Origin: Candidatus Melainabacteria bacterium | GTDB lineage: Bacteria > Cyanobacteriota > Vampirovibrionia > Obscuribacterales > Obscuribacteraceae | Length of the DNA: 64,000 nt | Reading direction: 5' to 3' | Assembly: GCA_003963305.1 (NCBI GenBank) | Contig: RXJR01000036.1 | Span: 1 to 64,000, forward strand | In this document: positions 7,271-63,967 of the stretch, piece after piece | Layout of the letters: every line of letters starts with the position of its first letter | Numbering within the stretch: position 1 is the first letter of the stretch | Position numbers and translations under genes: made by a program | The notes under the pieces: generated by a model | Told to the model about the DNA's origin: nothing | The model's database searches: none | What the model saw: the letters and a program-made list of their open reading frames with translations, nothing else

Positions 7271-8944
7271 ATGTTCAAGAATTTAGCGACTCGACACAAG
7301 CTGCTTATCAGCTTTTCGACAATGATTTTCTGTATCTTGATCATTGCCGGCGCAGCTTGTTTGGCGCTCTCCGCCAAAAGTGCCGGAGAAACTGCAGCCC
7401 AAACGTCAACCCAGTTACTGCAAATAGCGGCCGATGTTGATTCTGCTCAAATGGCGATAATGAGCTCGAACGGCGACAAGCGCGAGATTCTTGGCGACCT
7501 ATCCGATATGTCATTCGATTTGCGCCGGAAGATGGCAGCGCAATCAAATATTTCCGACTCATCGTTTTCAGAACTAGAACAAGCGGTTTCCAATTATCAC
7601 CAGGGTCTGAAGCAATACACGCAACTACTGCAGTCAGGAGATGCAGTAGGAGCTCTAAAATTCGCTAATGAGACACAACTGAAAAAATGTAAAGCAGTGC
7701 ACTCGCTGTGCAGCTCTATTGCTAAACAACAGATGATCACAGATCGCAACGAAAGAGACACTATCTTGCTCATCGCGTGTGTCGGAGGATTGGCAGTGTT
7801 CTTCGGAATCTTCTGCTTTATGGCATTGTGTGAGGAGATAGCTGCTCCCTTGCAACAATTGACGCTCGCCTCACAGCGGTTGGCAGCAGGAGATTTAGGA
7901 GCCCAACTGCCTGACTCCAATCGTAACGATGAAGTCGGTTCCGTTGTGAAAGCGTACACGAGCATGGTCATCTCGCTGCGAAACATCTCGGCTGCAGCGC
8001 AAAAGGTTGCTCAGGGCGATTTACGGGTTGAAGTCCAGCCCCGTTCAGACGAAGATTCGCTCGGTAAAGCATTCGCATCTATGGTCGAGAACATGTCATC
8101 AGCCACATCTCAAATCAAGTCTGCAGTTGAAGTGCTCTCCAATGCTGTCAGCAACATCATGGCTTCCGTCTCCGACTCCGCCTCGGGTGCAACAGAGACA
8201 GCCACGGCAGTGACAGAGACAACAACGACAGTTGAAGAAGTGCGTCAAACTTCACACATCGCCAATCAGAAAGCAAAAAACGTTGCGGAGAGCGCGCAGA
8301 AATCTGCTCAAATTTCGACAATGGGCCGAAAATCTACTGAAGAAACCATCCAGGGTATGAAACGTATACGCGAACAGATGGATCTGATTGCCGACAGTAT
8401 GGTGCGGTTGAGCGAGAAGAGTCAGTCCATAGTAGAAATCATTGCGACAGTAGACGACCTGGCCCAACAATCGAACTTGCTTGCAGTCAATGCCTCAATC
8501 GAAGCAGCAAAAGCTGGCGAACTCGGTCGCGGATTCGCCGTTGTGGCCCAGGAAGTGAAAAGCATGTCCGATCAATCGAAACATGCAACAGCGCAAGTCC
8601 GCAAGATTCTTGGAGAAATTCAGCAGGCAACGAGTTCCGCGGCGATGGCAACAGAACTGGGCAGTCGAGCAGTAGATGCAGCAGTGACACAATCGAATCA
8701 AGCCGGCGAAGCTATCTCCACTCTGGCTAGCAGCGTTGCAGAATCAGCCAACGCGGCGGCGCAAATAGCTGTTTCGAGCCAACAGCAGCTAGCAGGAGTG
8801 GATCAGGTGGCCACTGCAATGCTCGGTATAAAAGATGCCACGGCTCAAAACTTGATTGCTATCAGGCGAGTAGAGGAAGCGACACTAACGCTGCAAGAAC
8901 TTGGTGGAACGCTGAAAGTTTTGACGAAACGGTATCAACTCTAG
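7271..8944 (+). CDS. methyl-accepting chemotaxis protein
   Basis: 557 residues. TM1 spans about 12-34 and TM2 about 163-187; the periplasmic part between them is a short four-helix-type domain (about 128 residues) with no obvious ligand pocket. Two HAMP segments (188-240 and about 240-283) precede the signalling hairpin, whose tip is visible as LLAVNASIEAAKAGELGRGF (403-422). The C terminus ends in TKRYQL, with no CheR-binding pentapeptide. An AAGGA ribosome binding site sits about 11 bases before the ATG. It is the only receptor in the window and probably feeds the CheA encoded next. The short periplasmic helical bundle resembles PilJ-like receptors (inference). Confidence 0.93.
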   Translation: MFKNLATRHKLLISFSTMIFCILIIAGAACLALSAKSAGETAAQTSTQLLQIAADVDSAQMAIMSSNGDKREILGDLSDMSFDLRRKMAAQSNISDSSFSELEQAVSNYHQGLKQYTQLLQSGDAVGALKFANETQLKKCKAVHSLCSSIAKQQMITDRNERDTILLIACVGGLAVFFGIFCFMALCEEIAAPLQQLTLASQRLAAGDLGAQLPDSNRNDEVGSVVKAYTSMVISLRNISAAAQKVAQGDLRVEVQPRSDEDSLGKAFASMVENMSSATSQIKSAVEVLSNAVSNIMASVSDSASGATETATAVTETTTTVEEVRQTSHIANQKAKNVAESAQKSAQISTMGRKSTEETIQGMKRIREQMDLIADSMVRLSEKSQSIVEIIATVDDLAQQSNLLAVNASIEAAKAGELGRGFAVVAQEVKSMSDQSKHATAQVRKILGEIQQATSSAAMATELGSRAVDAAVTQSNQAGEAISTLASSVAESANAAAQIAVSSQQQLAGVDQVATAMLGIKDATAQNLIAIRRVEEATLTLQELGGTLKVLTKRYQL

Positions 8945-8951
8945 GTGTTCA

Positions 8952-11465
8952 ATGACCTCCTCAGAAGACGCGTTTTTAAAGAAGCTACGGGCGGCCTTTG
9001 TTGGCGAAGCACACGAACAAATTGAACACATATCTTTGGGTCTATCGCAGCTTCTAAGCACCACTGATGACACCGAGCGTCAGCGCATCGTAGAGAACAC
9101 CTTCAGAGAACTGCACAACATGAAGGGTTCTGCCAGAGCCGTTAATCTACTCAGCCTCGAAGCAGTCTGTCAGTCGCTTGAAGATATTTTCGCACAATTC
9201 AAACGCTCAGATCGAGAAATCACGGCGGCTCTGCTGGACACTCTCCACGAGGTCGTAGATAGCTTATCAATTTTCTTGAATAGTCTGGAGACTTCTGAAT
9301 CGATCGAACACTCCGCAGCCCTCGACAATATTCTTGAGACGCTATCAAAGCTAGACCGTTCAGAAGGCTCAAAAGCAAAATCGACGGACGCGAGCATATC
9401 TGAAGACACGCCTCTCCCAGACTGGTCAGACACCATCCCCACAGGGAAAGGCGAAGAGGAGTCCGAACAGGCGACAAAGAAAAAGATCGAAGATGAAAGT
9501 CCTGAATCAATTTTGGACAGCTTCGTCTTCGACTCATCATGGCAAGAAAGCAGCACACCGGGAGCACTTTTCGATATTGCGGAGACTCCCCCTCCTGCCA
9601 CGACCGCTGCTCCCACTGGATTCAACGCAGTAACTGCGCCGACCGCTGCCCTGTTTGAAGCGACATCACCGATGATGGCATCCACAATCGCAGAATCAGC
9701 ACGCGAATCTATTCGCATTCCGGCAGCCAGACTGGACGAATTGTTGATGCGAGCCGAAGACATGCTCAGCCTGAAAATAATGAGTCGACAACACAACAGC
9801 GATCTCAATAATGTCGGCTTTAGATTCGACGATTTCGCAAGAGAATTTTCCAAAATATACGCAGACGTTCGCGCCGCTCGACAGATGATAGACCGAGACC
9901 AGGCAACTTCCGAAGAAATTTTCATTGAATCCGTACTGACCAGAGTGCTTGAATTTCTCGATTCACAGCAACAACAGATGAGTGTTCTGGGCGCTCAGCT
10001 TAGCAACCTGCAGACTTCATCTCTAAACGACTTTAGAATTGCAAGCACTACAGTAGAAACCTTTCTCGAAAATACCAAGAAACTTTTGATGATGCCGGCA
10101 TCGACCATGCTCGAATTGATGCCAAAAATGGTGCGCGAACTGTCGCGAGAGCTGGGAAAAGAAGTGGATCTCACCATCAACGGCGGCACAATACAGCTCG
10201 ACAAGCGAGTTCTATCTCAAGTGAAGGATCCACTCATACACATATTACGCAACAGCATAGACCACGGTATGGAAAAACCAGAAGTAAGATTGGAGGCGGG
10301 GAAATCCAGACGCGGGTCGCTCATCATCAGCGTCATGCCTGAAGAAGGCAATACAGTGGAAATTGTTGTCACCGATGACGGTGCGGGAATCAACATAGAA
10401 AAAATAAAAACATTAGCCATAAAGAACGGGCTGCTGGACACCGAAAAGTCAAAATCGATGACCGACGCAGAGGCAATCGCCCTGATTTTTCAGTCCAGCT
10501 TCTCCACAAGCGACACGATTTCGGAAATTTCTGGAAGAGGACTGGGACTGGCAATTGCCAAAGAAAACATCGAAAAATTAGGCGGTAGACTTTTTGTGGA
10601 AAGTCGCAGGGGACTGGGAACCAGCTTCCGAATCAAGCTTCCCGTCACGGTGGCTACCTTCAGAGGCGTATTGATCAGGTGCTCAGATGAGACCCTGATA
10701 GTTCCCACTTCAGACCTGGAACGACTGATTAAAGTTAAACGCGAACACGTGACGATAAGCGAAACGAGCCGAATCATAAAAGTTGAAGGACGAGAAATTC
10801 CTTTGCTCAGGCTCGACGATGTCCTGGAGCTACCACTTTCGACGGCAAGTCCGTCTCAACATCTGGTTATGGTGCTTCGACACAGTGATTCTATGTGCGG
10901 ATTCGAAATAGATGAAGTCCTGGAAGAGCAGGAAATCCTGGTAAAAAAACTATCGAAACCGTTGGTGCGTGTGAGAAACGTAGCAGGTGTCACGGTTTTA
11001 GGATCAGGTAAACCAGCAGCAATTCTGAACGTCTCTGATTTGCTTAAATCAGCCAGGAAAATCTCAGCGCTGAAGAAACATCGCCAAACACCTGCAGCAA
11101 AGGTTGCCGGGAAGCGAATACTGATCGTTGATGACACCATCACAGCAAGAATTCTCATGAAAAACATTCTGGAGTCGGCAGGATACCTGGTCAAAACCGC
11201 CAACGATGGCACAGAAGCTCTAAAGGTTTTGACCAGAGAAAAATTTGACATGCTACTCACTGATATCGAAATGCCCAAAATGAATGGCATCGAGTTGACA
11301 GCAGCAGTCAGAAAAGGCGGTCAGAAGCTGCCGATCATTCTGGTCACATCGATGACCGACCAGAAATTCAGGGACGAAGGCACGGAGGCCGGAGCAGATG
11401 CATTTTTCGTCAAAAGCAGTTTTGACCAGAACAATCTCCTGGATGTGATAAAGCGATTAATGTAA
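8952..11465 (+). CDS. cheA: CheA-type histidine kinase with C-terminal receiver
   Basis: 837 residues. The N-terminal Hpt domain carries H55 in HNMKGSA. Residues about 130-245 are a variable acidic/Ser-rich linker. A helical dimerisation part follows, then the ATPase with N434 in LRNSIDHGM, DDGAG and GRGLGLA. The CheW-like regulatory domain spans about 575-705. The receiver (721-837) has the D727-D728 pair, D771 as phospho-acceptor and K821. CheA-receiver fusions are typical of the pili-linked and phototaxis systems of cyanobacteria and Pseudomonas (PixL, ChpA, FrzE). The fused receiver could serve as phosphate sink or second output. It starts 7 bp after the receptor gene and ends 3 bp before cheB. 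Confidence 0.95.
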   Translation: MTSSEDAFLKKLRAAFVGEAHEQIEHISLGLSQLLSTTDDTERQRIVENTFRELHNMKGSARAVNLLSLEAVCQSLEDIFAQFKRSDREITAALLDTLHEVVDSLSIFLNSLETSESIEHSAALDNILETLSKLDRSEGSKAKSTDASISEDTPLPDWSDTIPTGKGEEESEQATKKKIEDESPESILDSFVFDSSWQESSTPGALFDIAETPPPATTAAPTGFNAVTAPTAALFEATSPMMASTIAESARESIRIPAARLDELLMRAEDMLSLKIMSRQHNSDLNNVGFRFDDFAREFSKIYADVRAARQMIDRDQATSEEIFIESVLTRVLEFLDSQQQQMSVLGAQLSNLQTSSLNDFRIASTTVETFLENTKKLLMMPASTMLELMPKMVRELSRELGKEVDLTINGGTIQLDKRVLSQVKDPLIHILRNSIDHGMEKPEVRLEAGKSRRGSLIISVMPEEGNTVEIVVTDDGAGINIEKIKTLAIKNGLLDTEKSKSMTDAEAIALIFQSSFSTSDTISEISGRGLGLAIAKENIEKLGGRLFVESRRGLGTSFRIKLPVTVATFRGVLIRCSDETLIVPTSDLERLIKVKREHVTISETSRIIKVEGREIPLLRLDDVLELPLSTASPSQHLVMVLRHSDSMCGFEIDEVLEEQEILVKKLSKPLVRVRNVAGVTVLGSGKPAAILNVSDLLKSARKISALKKHRQTPAAKVAGKRILIVDDTITARILMKNILESAGYLVKTANDGTEALKVLTREKFDMLLTDIEMPKMNGIELTAAVRKGGQKLPIILVTSMTDQKFRDEGTEAGADAFFVKSSFDQNNLLDVIKRLM

Positions 11466-47945: not shown

Positions 47946-48040
47946 CGCCTCATTGGAAAAATTCATAACAGGTGGTACAACAGATGAAAGGTCGAAGTAT
48001 CGATTTGTTCAGCACCTTCAGGAACCTCAGCCGAAAGATC

Positions 48041-48709
48041 ATGTCAAAAATCCTGATTGTTGAAGATGACGAAGCACTGGCCGACTCGATTAAGGACATA
48101 CTGGAATTCGATCATCACCATGTCGATGCCGTCGCCGATGGTGCTCTCGGCCTCGAGCACGCGCTTTCAGGCGCATTCGATTTGATCATTCTCGACCGGC
48201 AACTCCCGGGAATGCAGGGAACAGATATCTGCACGGCATTCCGCAATAAAGGCGGGCAAACACCCATACTCATGCTTACCGCCCTCAGCTCAATCAATCA
48301 AAAACTGGAAGGTTTTGAAAGCGGCGTTGACGACTATCTGACCAAACCGTTCGCTATGCCGGAGCTGCTGGTGCGAATCAAAGCACTGCTGAAAAGACCA
48401 CCGATACAATCAAGAGCCGTATTGTCGGCCGGAAACATTTCACTTGATGCAGAAAGCAAGACAGTTATGCAATCCGGTCAAAACCTGAAACTAAAACCGC
48501 TCGAGTTCTCAGTTCTAGAATACTTCATGACGCATCCAAACAAAGTGATAAGCGCCGAAGAATTATTGAAACGCGTTTGGAAAACAGAAGCCGACGCATC
48601 AGTCGATTCTGTCTATACGTCTATAAACCGGCTGCGAAAAAAATTGGGAGAGAATGCAGACCAGATTTTGCAAACTGTGCACGGGCTGGGATACAAACTC
48701 GTAAAATAA
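48041..48709 (+). CDS. OmpR/PhoB-family response regulator
   Basis: 222 residues from the ATG at 48041, the usual family start (MSKILIVEDDE); the frame is open from a GTG at 47972. Receiver about 1-118 with E8-D9-D10, phospho-acceptor D52 (ILDRQLPGMQG) and K103-like Lys in YLTKPF. A winged-helix DNA-binding domain (about 127-222) ends in DSVYTSINRLRKKLG and VHGLGYKLVK. The kinase-like gene 48768 follows 58 bp later and is the expected partner, but its ATPase domain is decayed. Confidence 0.93.
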   Translation: MSKILIVEDDEALADSIKDILEFDHHHVDAVADGALGLEHALSGAFDLIILDRQLPGMQGTDICTAFRNKGGQTPILMLTALSSINQKLEGFESGVDDYLTKPFAMPELLVRIKALLKRPPIQSRAVLSAGNISLDAESKTVMQSGQNLKLKPLEFSVLEYFMTHPNKVISAEELLKRVWKTEADASVDSVYTSINRLRKKLGENADQILQTVHGLGYKLVK

Positions 48710-48767: not shown

Positions 48768-50876
48768 TTGTCAAAAATACGGCTCAGACTCTGGCATAAA
48801 TTCGAATTACTAGCAGCACTACCCATGGTGATCTGTGCTGCGGTCTTGCTGCTGCTCGGATTTATTTATACGTATACAGACCAGCAACTGGCAGAGGCGC
48901 AACGCGCTCGCGAAGCGTTAGACACATGCGAATTCCTGATGCGAACAGTGAGCCAAACGACAGCCAAGCTGTGGACGGCAGGCAACTTTGAAGCAGCAAG
49001 CGAACAACAAATTCTCAATACAACAAAAACAAAAGTGCGAGAGAAGGTGCAGAGACTAAAGGAACTCTGCAAAGATCATCCGGAACAACAGAGAACCGCA
49101 TTTGAACTGGAGGAAACGCTCGAGTCCTCGTTGAAACTGATGCAGAGATCAATTGAGATGAAGGCCGAACATGGCATAGCGCCCGCTCTCAAAATTATGA
49201 GCTTCCAGATTGCTACACAAGAACATGCTGACACGCTCTTTCAGTGCAATCGACGACTGACGGAGCAGCTTACCTCCAGCCTGGAACATTCCGAGCACGC
49301 ATCGACGGCCGAAACAATGCGCCCATTGCTGCTCTTAGCAGCGACACTGATCGCAGCAATAGGATTGATCACAGCCTTTATACTTAATCGAAGTGTAGTA
49401 AATCGTTTATCCAAACTCGTTTTGAACAGCAAACGCCTGGCCACTTTAGACAAACTAGTGCCACCATCAACAAAAGGCGAAAATGATGAAATAGCCGATC
49501 TGGACGACATTTTTCATACAATGGCGTCTTCACTTTCTGAAGCAATTGAAAGAGAACTCGCTACCATCGAGAAAGCAGCAGATGTAATTTGCACAGTAAA
49601 TTCAAGGGGAGAACTAAGAAGTGTCAACTCAGCCTGTCTATCCGCCTGGGGTTATCAGGCAGGAGAACTGATAGGTGGCAATCTCCTGGAGTTGGTGCAC
49701 CATGATGACCGCAGCCAAACCAAGGCATTTATAGCAACACTCAAAAACAGCGAAGAGATGGAGACTTTTGAAAACAAACTGACCAGGAAGGACGGAGGAC
49801 TTCTCGATATTCTCTGGTCATTTCGAAAGTCAGAAACAAGCGACGAAATATTTTGCATAGCCCACGACATAACAGAAAGAAAGAAGGCGCAGGAAGATTT
49901 ACGCAAAAGCGAAGATAGATTCGCTGCTATTAAAGAAAAGATGCCTGCCGGAATCATCATTTTCAGCGAAGACGGAGAAGTTCTCGATTACAATCCAAGC
50001 GCTATTACACTGCTAGGACGGGATCAGTCGAGCATAAAAAACACCAAACTGGAAAAAATCATTCCGGCACTGCATTCCGAACTCAATAATCTGTCGAAGC
50101 AAAGACTTCCCCATGAAGCTGAAATCATTCAAACAGATGGGTCAATCAAAACTGCAGACCTTATAGTCGAAGAACTCGAGCAGAGCGAAAACAGAAAAAA
50201 GCAGTACCTTTCCGTGCTGATCGATACCACAGAGCGCCATGAGTTCGAAAGGATAAAGGAGACTCTCGTGGCCATGATTGCACACGACATTGCCACTCCA
50301 ATGACTACTATTCACTCACAGCTGCATCTTGCGCAGCTTGGTGTCATGGGCGAACTGACAGAAGAGGGAGCGGCCTTAGTGCACAAGGCGGAAGCACAAA
50401 GCGTAGAATTGATGAATGTCTTAACCACAGTTATGAAAACTGCAAAATATAAACATGCCACCATCTCCAGCGGTATAGCAGCAACGAACCTTGCCGAAAT
50501 CGTTGATGCGGTCGTCGAGTCAACCGAATCTGAACAACAGCAAAAAAATGTAGATGTACATCTGCAAATCGATCGCTCGCTTAATTTATTGGTCGAACCT
50601 GACAGCTCTTCCCACGCAATCAAGGTCGTTCTGACAGCCCTCTTGCGAAGCTGCCCTGAAAATCAATTTCTCACAATCGAAAGTTTCTTCGACGAGGAAG
50701 CTAAAGAAGACACGCTGCGATTGCGACTATCGCATCCTCGCGAGGGCGTCGTCGGACCTCCGCAGAGTTTAGCATGGGAATTTGCCTGCGCCATTGTGCA
50801 GGCAAACAACGGGCACCTGAGATTTGTTGAGGGTCAAAAATTTGTTGCCTGCGAATTCGAATTCAAGGTAGCTTGA
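48768..50876 (+). CDS. PAS histidine kinase with degenerate ATPase domain
   Basis: 702 residues, TTG start. TM1 about 13-35, a periplasmic helical domain, TM2 about 185-207, a HAMP segment, two PAS domains (about 265-375 and 385-490) and a dimerisation helix with intact H box: H506 in IAHDIATPM. In the C-terminal domain the N box that reads NLLTNAIKFSP in the paralogue is replaced by TALLRSCPENQ, and the DXGXG and GXGLGL boxes are absent; only the last strand resembles an ATPase (FACAIVQANNGHL). It should not bind ATP. It could be phosphorylated in trans or serve as a phosphotransfer or phosphatase protein for the upstream regulator (inference). Confidence 0.85.
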   Translation: MSKIRLRLWHKFELLAALPMVICAAVLLLLGFIYTYTDQQLAEAQRAREALDTCEFLMRTVSQTTAKLWTAGNFEAASEQQILNTTKTKVREKVQRLKELCKDHPEQQRTAFELEETLESSLKLMQRSIEMKAEHGIAPALKIMSFQIATQEHADTLFQCNRRLTEQLTSSLEHSEHASTAETMRPLLLLAATLIAAIGLITAFILNRSVVNRLSKLVLNSKRLATLDKLVPPSTKGENDEIADLDDIFHTMASSLSEAIERELATIEKAADVICTVNSRGELRSVNSACLSAWGYQAGELIGGNLLELVHHDDRSQTKAFIATLKNSEEMETFENKLTRKDGGLLDILWSFRKSETSDEIFCIAHDITERKKAQEDLRKSEDRFAAIKEKMPAGIIIFSEDGEVLDYNPSAITLLGRDQSSIKNTKLEKIIPALHSELNNLSKQRLPHEAEIIQTDGSIKTADLIVEELEQSENRKKQYLSVLIDTTERHEFERIKETLVAMIAHDIATPMTTIHSQLHLAQLGVMGELTEEGAALVHKAEAQSVELMNVLTTVMKTAKYKHATISSGIAATNLAEIVDAVVESTESEQQQKNVDVHLQIDRSLNLLVEPDSSSHAIKVVLTALLRSCPENQFLTIESFFDEEAKEDTLRLRLSHPREGVVGPPQSLAWEFACAIVQANNGHLRFVEGQKFVACEFEFKVA

Positions 50877-50916
50877 AAAATTTCAAAACAAATACGCAGG
50901 TCCAACATATCAACAT

Positions 50917-53073
50917 TCACTGTAATGGCAGAGAGACAATAAAGGTAGCGCCCCGTCCATCATTATTTCTGGCGCAGATCGTGCCACCATGTTTCTCTAC
51001 GATGCTTTTACAGATCGCAAGACCAAGTCCAGTGCCGCCCTTTCGCGTCGCATCCGACACCGCCACCTGTTTAAAAGCTTCGAAAATTGTATCAAGCGCT
51101 GCTGCCGGAATCCCCGAACCTTGATCGCTGACACTGATATTGACTGCATTGCCTGCAATATCATTGGCAATATGTATTTCTCCTTTCTCAGGGGAAAACT
51201 TAATTGCATTTGTAAGCAAATTTACCAGCACTTGCACGATTCTCTCGGAATCGACGTTAATCTGACACTCAGAAATAACAGGGATAAGTTTCACTTTCTT
51301 GGCCGCAGCTTTAACAGCAACTGCACCCACAGCCTTATTTACAATATCACTAAGCGACGATGGTTTTATGCTTACAGCAAACAATTCATCGCCCATTCGT
51401 ATCCGCAAGAAATCATCAAATAGCCTCAGTAACCGCTCGCTCTCGTTTACCGAGACCTGCAGGCGACTGTGGGCTTTCTCGGTTAGCTCGCCCAGCTCAC
51501 CGGACTTGAGCCGAATCAAAATTTGCGCAATATCGGCCATCGGCTGAGCGACATCATCAGACATTGTGCGCAGCAATTCCTGCTTAATCCGCTCGATTGT
51601 TAGTCGCTCGGTTAAATCTGCAAAGATTGCCAGAACATACTTATCGCTGTCAACCTCGGCGATATTCAAAGAAAGTTCGATTGGAACAGCACCACTGTCA
51701 AGCTGAATAGATGATAAAAGACTTTTGCCGGACTGCTGCAACGCCAGGGAGAATAAATCTGTCATCCCCTCGGGCAATGTCAGTCGTTGCACAAACATCT
51801 GCTCTTCGACGGATCTGAGGTTGAACAATTTGAGAGCACTACCATTTGCAAATCTAACTCTTCCAAGTTTATCAATCAGCATTAAACCAGCCGGTAGATT
51901 TTCTACCAGCGATCTAACTTTGGCTTCGCTGTCATGCAACTGCTTTTCCAAACGCTTGCGCTCTGTGATATCGTGCGCGACACAGTAGTATCTCTGCTCA
52001 GCAAACTTCTGGTCGGCGGCGTTATGGACATTCAACAGCATGACAGCGAATTGACCATCGCTTTTTACAAAATCCGCTTCAAAAGTGGCTGTCTCACCTG
52101 AACCAATTGATTCCAAACGCATACGCAAAGCATCAATCGAATCACTTTTTACAAGCGTAATCAGCCGCCGTCCAAACAAATCCTCAGCAGAATACCCCCA
52201 GACCTTCTCGCACTCTTTGCCTATTTCAACTATCTTACTGTCATGGTCGATTGTAAAAATGACAGCACCAGCATTGGCAAGAATTGCTCTTTCCTGACTG
52301 CTAACCTGCCCGAGCAACGCAGCCATCTCATGGAATTGATGGTCTAATTCAGCGATTTCATCCGCCCCTTTGAGGGGCTCTAAGAGGGGAGCGCGGCGAG
52401 CAAGTCGTTTGCTATTTTCGATGATCACATTGAGGCGATTGGTGACTTGCCTGCTCAACAAAAGAGGCACCAGAATGCTCAATGTAATTGCCAATGCCGA
52501 ACCGCCATACAAAAGCAAACCGATCAACTGGCGATACTGGCTGACTGTAAACTCATTCTTGCCAACATAAGGCTCGTCCAGTCCAGCGATCTCAGTATCC
52601 AATTTATTATCGACAATTTGTTCGTTCACAAGCTCTCGAACTTCCCGCAGTCGCATCGGCGCAAAGTGAGCTCCACCCATGCGGATCAATTCGACCACTT
52701 CCTGAGATAAGGAAAGAGTCTTGTTGCACTCGGCCTCAATGCGTTCCACTCTCGCTAGCTGACTGGGGCGCCCAGCCATTGATTTTTTCAGTAGTCCTAT
52801 TGCGCTTTCGACTTTGCTTCTAGCGGTCAGATAGGGACGTAAAGTACTTTCACTTTGACTGGAGGCATATTCGAAAACAGCCATCGCACCGCTGGAGAGC
52901 GCAGTAGACAAAGTCATACCATCAGAAATTGCGGCACGTGCGCTCTCTTCTCTGCTCAACTCCGCTTCTTGGGCCGATACCAGATAAGCTAAAATAGTCA
53001 TCATCGCGACTCCAAACACAACTGGAATCGCAGCAACGACAAAAACTTTGGGAAGTAGCTTCAAACTCGACAC
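50917..53073 (-). CDS. PAS histidine kinase lacking the phospho-accepting His
   Basis: 718 residues, GTG start. TM1 about 9-31, periplasmic helical domain, TM2 about 180-203, HAMP, two PAS domains, dimerisation helix and ATPase domain. Where active kinases have SHDLRTPL the protein reads SDDVAQPM: D506 replaces His (codon GAT at 51558-51556). The ATPase domain is intact: NLLTNAIKFSP, VSDQGSGIP and GGTGLGLAICKSIVEKHGG. It therefore may bind ATP but cannot autophosphorylate on His. Convergent with the 48768 kinase, 40 bp between stop codons, and of the same overall design. Confidence 0.87.
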   Translation of the reverse strand: MSSLKLLPKVFVVAAIPVVFGVAMMTILAYLVSAQEAELSREESARAAISDGMTLSTALSSGAMAVFEYASSQSESTLRPYLTARSKVESAIGLLKKSMAGRPSQLARVERIEAECNKTLSLSQEVVELIRMGGAHFAPMRLREVRELVNEQIVDNKLDTEIAGLDEPYVGKNEFTVSQYRQLIGLLLYGGSALAITLSILVPLLLSRQVTNRLNVIIENSKRLARRAPLLEPLKGADEIAELDHQFHEMAALLGQVSSQERAILANAGAVIFTIDHDSKIVEIGKECEKVWGYSAEDLFGRRLITLVKSDSIDALRMRLESIGSGETATFEADFVKSDGQFAVMLLNVHNAADQKFAEQRYYCVAHDITERKRLEKQLHDSEAKVRSLVENLPAGLMLIDKLGRVRFANGSALKLFNLRSVEEQMFVQRLTLPEGMTDLFSLALQQSGKSLLSSIQLDSGAVPIELSLNIAEVDSDKYVLAIFADLTERLTIERIKQELLRTMSDDVAQPMADIAQILIRLKSGELGELTEKAHSRLQVSVNESERLLRLFDDFLRIRMGDELFAVSIKPSSLSDIVNKAVGAVAVKAAAKKVKLIPVISECQINVDSERIVQVLVNLLTNAIKFSPEKGEIHIANDIAGNAVNISVSDQGSGIPAAALDTIFEAFKQVAVSDATRKGGTGLGLAICKSIVEKHGGTICARNNDGRGATFIVSLPLQ

Positions 53074-53096: not shown

Positions 53097-53867
53097 ATGA
53101 ATTTCAGGCCAAAAGACACAAGAGCAATCACTTTATTGGCAACAATTTTGTTCATTTCTGCAATTGCGAGTCCCGCCACAGCGTCCAGGATGTCGGAATC
53201 TGCGAATGAACTGCGTACAGAATCAGCACTTTTAAATCCCGCGCAAGAGAAAGACCAGATCATAGACGAGCAAGACGAATTGTACGACCGGCAGAAAAAA
53301 ATCCCAGCCAGTGAGTATCCAAACTACATAGAGCACCTGCAACAACTCTTGAAAAAGCAAGAGAGCGCTTTCGGAAAAGACAGTCCTCAAGTGTCATGCA
53401 CCCTGGACCAACTTTATTCCGTGTATCACATGCAGCGCAGACCGGATCTACAGATTGACGTAGCCAGAAGATCCATGGAGATAAAGCGCCGGATCCTTGG
53501 CACTCAAGCAGTGGATACCGCCTTTGTAACTTGTCATTTAGCCAGCGCATTAGCGGCATGCGAACGTTACGAAGAAGCGCTCGCATTGCTGCAGAACCTC
53601 CTGAATCAACTAAAACCAACAAATGGAACAAGATCTGCAGAAACAATGTTGACATTCGAAATTGCCCAGACATATTTCCAGTGCAATAAATTCGAAGAAG
53701 CACAGCCCTGGTTCGACAAAGCGGTCAGTCTGAAACTACAGTATGCCCCCAACTCAAGAGTTTATCCTACGGCCTACAAAGTTCAGACAAGACAACGCAT
53801 TAACCAGCGTCTGGTGAACCGTTATCATCAACGGCTCTGGACAAACTCCAACAAATCACGCTCGTAA
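53097..53867 (+). CDS. exported TPR protein
   Basis: 256 residues. Signal peptide about 1-29 (ITLLATILFISAIASPATA), then three or four TPR units of the kinesin-light-chain type (about 70-225). It is divergent from the kinase at 53073 with 23 bp between the start codons, and its last 40 bp overlap the 3' end of the LuxR-type regulator on the other strand. Function unknown; presumably a periplasmic protein-binding adaptor. Confidence 0.78.
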   Translation: MNFRPKDTRAITLLATILFISAIASPATASRMSESANELRTESALLNPAQEKDQIIDEQDELYDRQKKIPASEYPNYIEHLQQLLKKQESAFGKDSPQVSCTLDQLYSVYHMQRRPDLQIDVARRSMEIKRRILGTQAVDTAFVTCHLASALAACERYEEALALLQNLLNQLKPTNGTRSAETMLTFEIAQTYFQCNKFEEAQPWFDKAVSLKLQYAPNSRVYPTAYKVQTRQRINQRLVNRYHQRLWTNSNKSRS

Positions 53868-54640
53868 CGACCAAAGTTTTCTATATCAATCAGCCCGCGA
53901 CGGATTGCTTCTACAACAACGCGTACTCGCATGTTGACTGTACCGCCATCGTGATCGAGTGCTTTCAATTGATCTTGATCGAGCAACTTTTGAAATATCA
54001 GAGTGATGCGATTTTGAATTCCACGCACGCTGACATTCTGCCTGGCCGCAATCGCTCTGTCAGTCAAGCCAAGCGCCATATCCACAAGTGTGGCGTATTC
54101 GGCATCGCTAAGCGAGCTATTACCGAACGTTCGTCGTGACTGGCTGGTGAGAGGATCGATAAAAGTGCAGTTATGACTGAGCACACACTCGATACCATAT
54201 CTAATGCGCTCAACACTCTGTCCTTTAAAGATGTAGCCGAAGACGGCACGGCCGGGCACAATCTTTTCGATCTTCCGAAGGTGCCACTCTTTGTATGAAT
54301 CGGCAAGAAAAATGATCTTAGCTTGCGGATTATGTAACCACATACGAGCAGCGGCCTCGAACACGTTGGCATCAGCTGCTTTCAAATCGAGAACAATCAG
54401 ATCCGTTTTCTTGATCTTGTATGAATTGAGGGCTTCATCACCTGTTCTTACAAATGTAATCGCCACAGTAGACTTGCTAGAATCAGTGAATAATTGCCTG
54501 TAAGATGCACGCAACTGCTCTGACTGCTCGGCGACCAAAATGTGCACAGCAACGGGTTCTGCCTCCAACGGGGCAATTGGAGCAAAAGATAGTAACGAAG
54601 AGGCGGAATGGCTTGTGAGGAAATTCGTTTGCATTTGCAT
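53828..54640 (-). CDS. NarL/LuxR-like response regulator
   Basis: 271 residues from the ATG at 54640. The frame is open upstream to 54931 but there it translates the 14-bp repeat array and is improbable. Receiver-like domain about 32-150 with D85 (LIVLDLKAAD) and K139; the acidic pair is only E38-Q39, so metal binding may be weak. Helix-turn-helix of the LuxR type about 180-230 (LSDAEYATLVDMALGLTDRAIA), where the usual Glu in LTxRE is replaced. It overlaps the convergent TPR gene by 40 bp. Confidence 0.78.
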   Translation of the reverse strand: MQMQTNFLTSHSASSLLSFAPIAPLEAEPVAVHILVAEQSEQLRASYRQLFTDSSKSTVAITFVRTGDEALNSYKIKKTDLIVLDLKAADANVFEAAARMWLHNPQAKIIFLADSYKEWHLRKIEKIVPGRAVFGYIFKGQSVERIRYGIECVLSHNCTFIDPLTSQSRRTFGNSSLSDAEYATLVDMALGLTDRAIAARQNVSVRGIQNRITLIFQKLLDQDQLKALDHDGGTVNMRVRVVVEAIRRGLIDIENFGRYERDLLEFVQSR

Positions 54641-54793
54641 CTGGCAGAACCCGTTTGTTGTGTACAGATGAAATCGTATGCCAGAAGACCTAACCGACTC
54701 CTGTCCAACTTCTAACCGATTTCTAACCACGCCTGAAATTCTGCTGTCTGCGAAAAATCGGAACGAGAGCGTCCCAGTTCCAATCCTGTTCAT

Positions 54794-54881
54794 CAGTCCC
54801 TGTTCGCCAGTCCCTGTTCGCCAGTCCCTGTTCGCCAGTCCCTGTTCGCCAGTCCCCGTTCGCCAGTCCCCGTTAGTCAGT
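54794..54881. repeat. 14-bp tandem repeat, 6 copies
   Basis: Unit CAGTCCCTGTTCGC: four perfect copies (54794-54849), then two variants to 54877 and a partial copy. The right end enters the last codons of the SWIM gene (stop at 54873-54875). On the minus strand the array lies between the SWIM stop and the response regulator start. The 14-bp period does not keep a reading frame, so it is probably non-coding. Confidence 0.9.
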
Positions 54882-55832
54882 ACTGGAGAATCGCTCGTCA
54901 GCCAAATCGCGAATAGCATTCTCACTGCCAATTTTGTAGACCTCCTCTAAGGTCGCAAGAAATGGATAGCTGGAACGCCAGAAAGAGATATGACCCAACC
55001 TTTTGGGCAATGCCGCATTCGCCGCCGGCCTGTGCACTGCCCCGACGAGATGACTTACATTGTGAACCTTCCAAAAATCTCCGAGGGGCAAAGTTGGGCG
55101 CTCCGTCTTTCTCTTTGAAGCAGTCCTTGTCGTTTTATTCTCAACCGAACTTGGCTCGCCTTCTTCCTTAGAAGATTTACGGAGACCAGCTCCACCCTTT
55201 GACTTGGATACAGTCGGTTCTTCCGCTTTACGGACTGGCGGCGACGAAGTTGTAATCAGATCGATCAACTTCTCCTTGCTCAGACCGCGCATACGAAATA
55301 TCAAAAATGGATCTCGGTCAAATTCCTCACTGAGCAGATAATAAACTGAGGCAATATGCTTGCATGGATTGGAATAATCAGGGCACGAACAGTCTGTAGC
55401 AAAATCATTCATACTTGCTGGAAACAGCGAAACGCCATGCTCTGCAAAAAGCTTTTCAATATCCTCAGGCATCTCGGCCGCGAGCAGTTTTGCGGCAACA
55501 ATAGCTTGATTGAAAGCCGTTTCCGACAGAAGAACCCACTTATCCACGGGAATTGTTTTCACGCCGATGTGCACGCTGTACGGCTGCAACCGCGAGCCCT
55601 GAACCCTGGCGGATATAGAGCCTTCCTGAATGTCGATTGAGAGCACCTGCCCGCGTCTTGCGTAGACCCGACCACGACCTAAACGCCCTCCCAGATCCAG
55701 CTCCTCGATCACATTGATCCAACGCCTGGCCCACCATGTCTTACCGAATTTTCCGCGTTCATTTTGCGACTTGATGCCACCACGAGCAATGCGTGGGCCA
55801 TAGCGTGAATTAAAAATGTCATCATGAGACAT
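54873..55832 (-). CDS. SWIM zinc-finger protein
   Basis: 319 residues. The SWIM motif is visible as C148-S-C150 ... C157-K-H159, a zinc finger thought to bind DNA or protein. The N terminus (SRYGPRIARGGIKSQNERG...) is the conserved start of bacterial SWIM proteins; the middle is Ser/Lys-rich and disordered (about 200-255). The start codon directly follows the stop of the SNF2 gene (TAAATG), so the two are translated together, a pairing common in bacteria. The last codons lie inside the 14-bp repeat. Confidence 0.88.
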   Translation of the reverse strand: MSHDDIFNSRYGPRIARGGIKSQNERGKFGKTWWARRWINVIEELDLGGRLGRGRVYARRGQVLSIDIQEGSISARVQGSRLQPYSVHIGVKTIPVDKWVLLSETAFNQAIVAAKLLAAEMPEDIEKLFAEHGVSLFPASMNDFATDCSCPDYSNPCKHIASVYYLLSEEFDRDPFLIFRMRGLSKEKLIDLITTSSPPVRKAEEPTVSKSKGGAGLRKSSKEEGEPSSVENKTTRTASKRKTERPTLPLGDFWKVHNVSHLVGAVHRPAANAALPKRLGHISFWRSSYPFLATLEEVYKIGSENAIRDLADERFSSTD

Positions 55833-62134: not shown

Positions 62135-63967
62135 TTGAAGAGGCGATTCTCACTATTTTCAAAGGGCGTACTGCTGGTAGCAGTACCAGTTTTGTTCGAG
62201 ATATTGTTTGTAGTCAGTTTGTTCTTACTGGTTGTCCAATCGCAACAACAGGCCCTACAACGAGCCCACATTCTTTCGAACTTTCAAGAAATTGCAGCAG
62301 CATCATCAGATGGCTACCTGGCTATTTTTTCTTCCATTTCTTATGCCACACTGCCGACCAAACAGTCTTTTGATGACTACAACAACGCGCGCAACAAATA
62401 CATTCAGCACGTCAAATCGATCCAAAACATAAGCTCGCATCCGCTCACGATTAAGAGTGTAAAAGCAGTTACTGATGCATCGAAGATAGCTCTCAGTCTT
62501 CTCGACGAAATAGACCTGAAAGTACAGCACAATGATCTGGCTATCTATGAAGGATTTCAGTACAGTCGTCGCGCCATGCAAATCGCAAAAGAATTAAAAG
62601 CGCAATTGACAAACTTTCGAACCGAATATCAGAACGCACTAATTGAAAGTGACGAGGAAGCAGCACGGTTTCAGGCGCTGCTTCAAAATTACGTAATCGG
62701 GGGCATTCTCGGCAGCATCGTAATTGCATTCGGACTATGTTTCTACTTCAGCAAATCAATCGTTGCGAGGCTCAAGATCGTCAAAGACAACAGCGTCCGC
62801 ATAGCCGCCGAAGCGCCGCTAAACAAACCAATCTCCGGCAGCGATGAGATCACCGATCTCGACAAATCAATCAGAGGAATGTCTAAAATCATTTCGGAAA
62901 CAAGGGAAAGTGAAAGAGCAGTACTCGAAAATGCCTCCGATATCATTTGCACCATAGACTCCCAGGGCAGATTTTCGTCGATCAACCCCGCATCCTTACG
63001 AATCTGGGGTTACGATCCAGACGATCTGCGCGGGCGCCGGTGCGTCGACGTTCTCGCCGAAGATAGCAAGACTTCACTTCCTTCAAACAAAGAGGCGCTT
63101 GCTGCACATCCAGGTGGGCAGTTCGAGAATCGCATTATCGCCAAAGATGGAACGCATCGAGACATGCTCTGGTCTGTGCAAAAATCAGAAGACGAACAAT
63201 CGATGTTTTGCGTTGTTCATGACATCACCGAACGAAAAGAAGCTGAACGCTTCAAGCAACAATTGACCGCCGTCGTCAGTCACGACTTGCGCACCCCGCT
63301 CACCTCGATGCAGGGCGCTCTCACGCTTTTGGGCATGGGCGCACTGGGCGAACTACCCGAAGCAGCAGCGAAGAAGATTCAAATTCTCGATTCTGAGATC
63401 GTTCGGCTGATTGCTATTACGAATGATCTTCTGGAAATGGAAAGCCTCACTTCGGGCAAACTCGAACTCTTCATACGCGAAACAGATCTGGCAGATCTGC
63501 TCGAGCGCTGCAAAGACTCAGTGGAAACGTTTGCCGAGCAGCACGGCGTTAAAATCGTTACGGCTTCAACGGATCTGGTTATAAACACCGATGCAGATCG
63601 CTTAGCCCGTGTTCTTATTAACTTGCTCGGTAACGCGATCAAATTTTCACCGGCGGGAGAAACTGTATATGTCGACGTGAATGCTGCCGAAACGGACTTA
63701 GAAATATCCGTTACAGACCACGGCAGAGGTATTCCTGATGGCTATCACGAAGTGATTTTCGAACGGTTCAAGCAGGTCGAAGAAGCAGATGCAAAACAGA
63801 AGGGCGGCTCTGGTTTGGGACTGGCAATCTGCAAGTCGATAATTGAACAACTCGGCGGCACAATCGGTGTGGAAAGTACATTAGGAAAAGGAAGCCGCTT
63901 CTGGTTCAAGCTTCCCCTTACTTGTCTGACAGAACATCCAAAAGCAAGCCGCGGTCAGGTCCACTGA
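62135..63967 (+). CDS. PAS histidine kinase, intact
   Basis: 610 residues, TTG start with GGGAAG about 5 bases before. TM1 about 11-33, a periplasmic helical domain, TM2 about 186-208, HAMP, one PAS domain (about 265-375), DHp with H383 in VVSHDLRTPL, and a complete ATPase domain (NLLGNAIKFSP, VTDHGRGIP and GGSGLGLAICKS). Its membrane part and PAS closely resemble the two altered kinases at 48768 and 50917, so the three are paralogues and this one shows the ancestral active form. No response regulator lies next to it within the window. Confidence 0.95.
   Translation: MKRRFSLFSKGVLLVAVPVLFEILFVVSLFLLVVQSQQQALQRAHILSNFQEIAAASSDGYLAIFSSISYATLPTKQSFDDYNNARNKYIQHVKSIQNISSHPLTIKSVKAVTDASKIALSLLDEIDLKVQHNDLAIYEGFQYSRRAMQIAKELKAQLTNFRTEYQNALIESDEEAARFQALLQNYVIGGILGSIVIAFGLCFYFSKSIVARLKIVKDNSVRIAAEAPLNKPISGSDEITDLDKSIRGMSKIISETRESERAVLENASDIICTIDSQGRFSSINPASLRIWGYDPDDLRGRRCVDVLAEDSKTSLPSNKEALAAHPGGQFENRIIAKDGTHRDMLWSVQKSEDEQSMFCVVHDITERKEAERFKQQLTAVVSHDLRTPLTSMQGALTLLGMGALGELPEAAAKKIQILDSEIVRLIAITNDLLEMESLTSGKLELFIRETDLADLLERCKDSVETFAEQHGVKIVTASTDLVINTDADRLARVLINLLGNAIKFSPAGETVYVDVNAAETDLEISVTDHGRGIPDGYHEVIFERFKQVEEADAKQKGGSGLGLAICKSIIEQLGGTIGVESTLGKGSRFWFKLPLTCLTEHPKASRGQVH

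Follow-up and report, generated by a model that had tools for sequence, protein, structure and literature searches.

A convergent pair of membrane histidine kinases with complementary catalytic losses: a likely split sensor kinase of a Melainabacteria genome

Introduction

Among the closest described counterparts of the system reported here is the CheA3/CheA4 split kinase of Rhodobacter sphaeroides, in which neither protein autophosphorylates alone and the His-bearing protein is also a phosphatase (PMC3591291). We analyzed a 64,000-nucleotide stretch of DNA (the window; positions 1 to 64,000 of contig RXJR01000036.1, assembly GCA_003963305.1) of Candidatus Melainabacteria bacterium, which encodes two membrane kinases, designated KinA and KinB, whose catalytic lesions are complementary. 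The likeness to CheA3/CheA4 lies in the placement of the ATP-binding and phospho-acceptor functions on two proteins (PMC3591291). However, CheA3 and CheA4 are cytoplasmic proteins of the CheA class, associated with a chemoreceptor cluster and missing whole domains (P1, or P3 and P4), whereas KinA and KinB are full membrane HisKA kinases with lesions at the level of points or boxes, and they have many counterparts, in the form of both pairs and fusions. Pfam searches of KinA and KinB gave HisKA, PAS and CHASE3 assignments and no Hpt or CheW domain, i.e. no CheA architecture.

A split histidine kinase is also formed by Hik36-Hik43 (PilL-N/PilL-C) of Synechocystis, whose complex has two-hybrid support (PMC7656254). 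It differs in being a CheA-type gene divided into Hpt and kinase parts, encoded by distant genes, rather than a set of complementary degenerate paralogues. In a survey of HisKA proteins, 1556 of 42417 were without HATPase and were regarded as possible split kinases (PMC3591291). KinA would belong to this class, since it has HisKA without HATPase and keeps the H(D/E)xx(N/T) motif; the text consulted names no partners, whereas in the present case a complementary partner adjoins, and the arrangement recurs and is also found as fusions.

RetS-GacS (PMC5992135) is a heteromeric kinase pair with one degenerate member, and the predicted core of KinA is closest to RetS; the difference is that the partner of RetS is a complete kinase, whereas KinA and KinB are each without the other's part. 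The paralogous sensor kinases ChrS and HrrS of Corynebacterium glutamicum heterodimerise in their native forms, and ChrS had a dead CA (ATP-binding) domain in an evolved strain (PMC9491836). This ChrS is, however, a laboratory-evolved mutant in which the acceptor His is dispensable, and HrrS is intact. A limited search of the open-access literature, with subscription literature outside its scope, yielded no report of complementary membrane HisKA pairs or fusions. As far as we could find, the known natural split histidine kinases are of the CheA type, and a membrane HisKA form that has arisen repeatedly is new.

Results

Complementary lesions of KinA and KinB

The genome carrying the window (G000; 7.48 Mb) was compared with two other genomes of its genus, G001 and G002. 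A preliminary description of the locus, made from the nucleotide sequence, had stated that the plus-strand kinase (KinA) keeps H506 and has lost the N box and both glycine boxes of the ATPase, and that the minus-strand kinase (KinB) has all ATPase boxes and carries Asp (codon GAT) at the His position. Both statements held in domain searches and alignments. KinA produced no Pfam HATPase match, even at E 0.1, and its alignment with 49 family members revealed a CA domain without N box, G1 Asp and G2 box, from which approximately 24 residues corresponding to the F box/ATP lid are also missing. The acceptor His is in place; the HisKA match of KinA (E=1.1e-4) falls under the Pfam cut-off, while that of its G001 ortholog is slightly over it. 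KinB, in turn, matched HATPase_c (E=3.7e-29) and contains 7/7 of the scored CA key residues, and its DHp domain (the helix pair that carries the acceptor position) is HisKA-like with the His replaced by Asp. The Thr at position H+4 is kept in KinA and lost in KinB. In neither protein are the HATPase boxes N, G1, F and G2 combined with the His in one chain; by Pfam and alignment, the ATP-binding function and the acceptor His are located on different polypeptides.

The two kinases were also said to share membrane, HAMP and double-PAS architecture. The double PAS was found in both, together with CHASE3 (slightly under the cut-off in KinA), while the Pfam matches to HAMP were weak (E=0.096 in KinB, E=0.003 in KinA of G001), with a recognisable HAMP-like motif, GDEIAELD..FH.M. 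As for the third paralogue, KinC, it proved to be intact as described, but has a single PAS domain instead of two.

In an AlphaFold model the CA domain of KinA retains its alpha/beta fold without the lid (predicted local distance difference test, pLDDT, 87). The best PDB fold matches of the predicted KinA core are RetS structures, including the RetS-GacS DHp co-complex. The CA domain may serve as a structural partner in the dimer. The coordinates of the features are presented in Table 1.

Table 1. Location of KinA, KinB and associated features in the window
Feature	Position	Strand	Size or evidence
KinA, membrane CHASE3-like/HAMP-like/PAS/PAS/HisKA sensor kinase, predicted phospho-acceptor subunit	48768-50873 (listed to 50876)	+	702 aa
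KinA His506 codon CAC, in AHDIATP	50283..50285	+	sequence; Thr at H+4 (phosphatase position) retained
KinA degenerate CA domain	50457..50873	+	alignment; fold predicted retained
KinB, membrane CHASE3/HAMP-like/PAS/PAS/DHp/CA kinase, predicted kinase subunit	50920-53073 (listed from 50917)	-	718 aa
KinB Asp506 codon GAT at phospho-acceptor position, SDDVAQP	51556..51558	-	sequence
KinB N box NLLTNAIKFS, intact	51193..51222	-	sequence and residue scoring
KinB G1 box DQGSGIP, intact	51106..51126	-	sequence and residue scoring
KinB G2 box GGTGLGLA, intact	51017..51040	-	sequence and residue scoring
OmpR-family response regulator, likely target of KinA/KinB	47972..48709 (also listed to 48706)	+	REC E=9e-26, Trans_reg_C E=6e-22
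KinC, intact single-PAS paralogue, for comparison	62135..63967	+	orthologs in G001 (82%) and G002 (73%)

Recurrence as adjacent separate genes

Each of the 155 kinase genes of G000, G001 and G002 (a set that is near-complete for the kinase family, as distinct from every histidine kinase) was scored for the His and for seven CA residues. Kinases without the His and with an intact CA domain number three per genome, nine in total, and 9/9 directly adjoin a His-bearing kinase with a degenerate CA domain. In 200,000 shuffles of the labels, 9 such pairs were never reached: the maximum was 4 when labels were exchanged among all kinases, and 8 when the exchange was restricted to tandem kinases. For G000 alone, the restricted shuffle gave a P of 0.005 and the unrestricted one a P of about 2e-5. 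The nine pairs do not represent nine independent cases, because some are orthologs. The single apparent exception is L250, a CA-dead kinase of G002 located at the edge of a contig; directly upstream of it lies the stop of a truncated gene, the visible end of which encodes an intact CA domain.

Pattern searches covering 50 family genomes revealed additional pairs in G005, G017, G025 (two) and G065/G028, and another G025 pair came to light in a region that the kinase survey had included. In an out-of-sample test with a broader pattern, each of the five new separate-gene His-less kinases (in G022, G024, G071 and, twice, G070) was followed by a His-bearing, CA-degenerate kinase. Across the loci examined, 21/23 separate His-less kinases have a complementary neighbour; the remaining two are L268 of G070, located at a contig edge, and L148 of G060, which stands alone. 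Outside the family, a phylum-wide pattern accepting only Asp or Glu in the canonical box found no His-less, CA-intact kinase in 386 genomes.

The residue replacing the His is variable. In one clade, that of the third pair, it is Glu in G000 and Ser in G001 and G002; since the replacement varies even within a clade, the shared trait is the loss of the His and not a particular substitute. An apparent rule that the replacement is always acidic was an artefact of the first search pattern, and Ser, Arg, Gln, Asn and Tyr were later found.

Among 261 scored modules, 182 were intact, 39 His-less and 38 CA-degenerate, and a single true family kinase had lost both halves. The H+4 residue corresponds to the phosphatase position of HisKA kinases. 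Thr or Ser occupies it in 37/38 CA-degenerate modules, and Lys, Glu, Gln, Gly or Asp in some of the His-less ones, a pattern that would be expected if a phosphatase function stays with the His.

Several individual loci may be mentioned separately. The lone kinase of G060 (L148:5612-7462) has Glu for His and an intact ATPase, and lies beside a divergent OmpR-type regulator. A locus of G070 (L330, G070:C385) contains four kinases forming two successive complementary pairs, the lost His being replaced by Gln and Glu. The doubly lost kinase of G009 (L267:1588-3054) has Arg for His and a CA domain that is degenerate in part, and there is no partner in its vicinity. Some candidates were rejected: L020 and L225 appeared His-less owing to hidden Markov model misalignment and have a second H box, and L222/L350, of 1174-1176 aa, in which one module has Thr for the His and the other is intact, belong to a different hybrid family and were excluded from the pairs. 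L043/L212, at first misread as His-less, are long proteins that represent real double-kinase fusions.

Natural fusions

Two kinases are joined in one chain in several proteins, which measure about 800 to 1300 aa. Fourteen fusions combine a His-less, CA-intact module with a His-bearing module whose CA domain is degenerate or missing, in either order. In the fusion L340 of G013, for example, module 1 carries the His and has no CA domain, and module 2 has a CA domain and Glu for His. The HELRTPL motif of module 2 and the key residues of the N box, G1 and G2 of module 1 are invariant, or nearly so, in the 11 aligned fusions. Two further double kinases, L354 of G000 with both modules intact, and L349 of G002 with one dead CA domain and one intact module, plausibly represent earlier stages of the split.

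Genes of about 1000 aa encoding two kinases also occur in clusters: L355 (G000:C24:150000-169900), L341-L342 (G002:C66) and L343 (G001:C41). Each gene of these clusters encodes two membrane kinases, most of them with complementary lesions between the modules.

Conservation of the pair in related genomes

Orthologs of KinA and KinB were searched for in 60 genomes, including G000 itself, and were present in G001 only (62% identity for KinA and 69% for KinB). The G001 genes have the same convergent order and the same regulator upstream of KinA (75% identical, syntenic and immediately upstream), and both lesions are retained. There was no genome among the 60 in which one of the two genes was present without the other; the two lesions thus co-occur in G000 and G001, the other searched relatives have neither gene, and the case named beforehand as contradicting a partnership, one gene kept and the other absent, was not found. 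In G002, none of KinA, KinB and the cognate regulator was found, nor was any close ortholog of a nearby orphan regulator (gene 53831); at the 86% completeness of this assembly, a gap could account for the missing block. In a wider collection of genome contigs the search for relatives gave only distant kinases from other phyla.

Between G000 and G001, synonymous divergence (dS) is saturated, and nonsynonymous divergence (dN) is 0.30 for KinA and 0.22 for KinB. The DHp region is the best-conserved part of KinA (88% identical), and even its degenerate CA domain is 61% identical. Both lesions are stable, in a gene pair under purifying selection.

Probable origin by duplication and loss

Trees were built from short alignments that excluded the CA domain; they place KinA and KinB as sisters (support 0.97), and likewise both genes of some other pairs. 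Each gene of the pair at C36:114k groups as sister with its counterpart in a tandem pair that is intact (support 0.998 and 0.993), which indicates that complementary loss came after tandem duplication. When the H box was also masked and loss was treated as irreversible, the minimum number of separate losses was at least 15 per half, with 16 to 19 for the His and 15 to 16 for the CA domain, depending on the support cut-off.

Discussion

We consider it likely, from sequence comparisons, that KinA and KinB constitute an obligate heteromeric split sensor kinase, and, in the same judgement, that they derive from one duplicated kinase by subsequent loss of complementary catalytic halves, a route often used in the family; together this is the best explanation of the data. 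It is very probable that such sensors function only in mixed pairs. We infer heteromer formation, the direction of phosphate transfer and the partnership with the regulator as follows. Each chain would contribute a membrane sensor, its PAS domains and a pair of DHp helices; the CA domain of KinB would bind ATP and phosphorylate His506 of KinA across a mixed DHp bundle, and phosphorylated KinA would pass the phosphate to the OmpR-type regulator encoded upstream. Because the H+4 Thr is present in KinA but not in KinB, KinA probably holds phosphatase activity as well. A homodimer of either protein should be kinase-inactive, and the output would therefore need both sensors (an AND gate or a ratio sensor). 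A complex is supported by the fusions in nature that join these two types of module, and by the origin of KinA and KinB as sister paralogues. The partnership suggested in the preliminary description is strongly supported by the comparison, the same arrangement being present in many adjacent pairs and fusions; its remark that such trans arrangements are rare is wrong for this lineage, in which complementary pairs recur.

Several observations weigh against this interpretation. The KinA and KinB genes are convergent, unlike those of most complementary pairs, and would hence be expressed without operon coupling. The model requires phosphorylation between chains (trans geometry), since in a dimer with cis geometry the CA domain of KinB would face its own Asp. 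An AlphaFold model of a fusion contains two kinases but is uninformative on the packing of the modules (predicted template modelling score, pTM, 0.43). The L148 kinase of G060 has no complementary neighbour. Some CA-dead members, such as L147 of G002, retain the N and G1 Asp residues, and ATP binding may therefore not be abolished in every one of them. Finally, the patterns that supplied most of the His-less kinases from genomes other than the three congeners favour the canonical box, so that these counts are not unbiased.

An unlikely alternative is that KinA is a pseudokinase of the RetS or DivL type, which modulates another kinase allosterically or dephosphorylates the regulator, without being phosphorylated by KinB. 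The RetS-like fold of its core points in this direction, as does the 61% conservation of a CA domain for which no normal ATPase activity is possible, so that a structural role has been kept. The partner of the degenerate member is, however, a complete kinase in RetS-GacS, and also in the heteromeric pair DivL-CckA, whereas KinB is without the His; the sole acceptor His of the pair belongs to KinA, in a DHp region that is 88% conserved. A pseudokinase role also fails to predict the strict complementarity observed across many lineages and in the fusions.

It is still less probable that the two proteins are not mutual partners, with the CA domain of KinB acting on the His of other paralogues, and KinA being phosphorylated by one of about 50 intact ones. 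More than 50 related CHASE3-like/HAMP/PAS kinases are encoded in G000, which makes cross-talk possible, and G060 has one lone His-less kinase. Nevertheless, the adjacency of CA-dead and His-less kinases, their fusion in one chain, and the presence or absence of the KinA/KinB pair as a block would all be left unexplained. That KinA and KinB are duplicates in decay, whose lesions arose by chance, is very improbable: the lesions have the form of loss-of-function changes, and large paralogous families do shed members, yet both frames are long and open, dS is saturated while dN is low, the lesions are kept under purifying selection in a second species, the intact half of each protein is unbroken, and other pairs have the same pattern.

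Extended to the whole family, the split-kinase reading would mean that homodimeric membrane kinases have been converted to obligate heterodimers at least 15 times, and sometimes fused as a "pseudo-heterodimer" chain, which we regard as reasonably probable, with less confidence than the reading of KinA and KinB themselves. Partners are readable from gene order, while HisKA kinases without an ATPase have previously been counted and, as far as we found, left unmatched. Stages from the intact tandem pair through partial decay to the complete split, as well as the fusion, coexist, so that the evolution of an obligate heteromer may be traced stepwise. Kinases usually annotated as broken are predicted to be functional, and their DHp domains would have to phosphorylate in trans. 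Moreover, partners can bear different sensors, which would integrate two signals in one kinase, and modelling of split kinases predicts a switch-like or bistable output (PMC3591291). If correct, this would be a natural and repeated case of duplication, degeneration and complementation inside one enzyme, yielding two-sensor AND gates.

Other genes of the window

The translation start of the OmpR-type regulator is probably the ATG at 48041. The window also contains a gene for a hybrid CheA with Hpt, HATPase, CheW and receiver domains (8925-11462). An orphan REC-like regulator gene (53831-54931, minus strand) is conserved in G001. The annotated 5' part of this gene overlaps a short tandem repeat located near 54850-54930, and the G001 ortholog aligns from residue 60 onward only; therefore, the true start of the gene is probably located further in.

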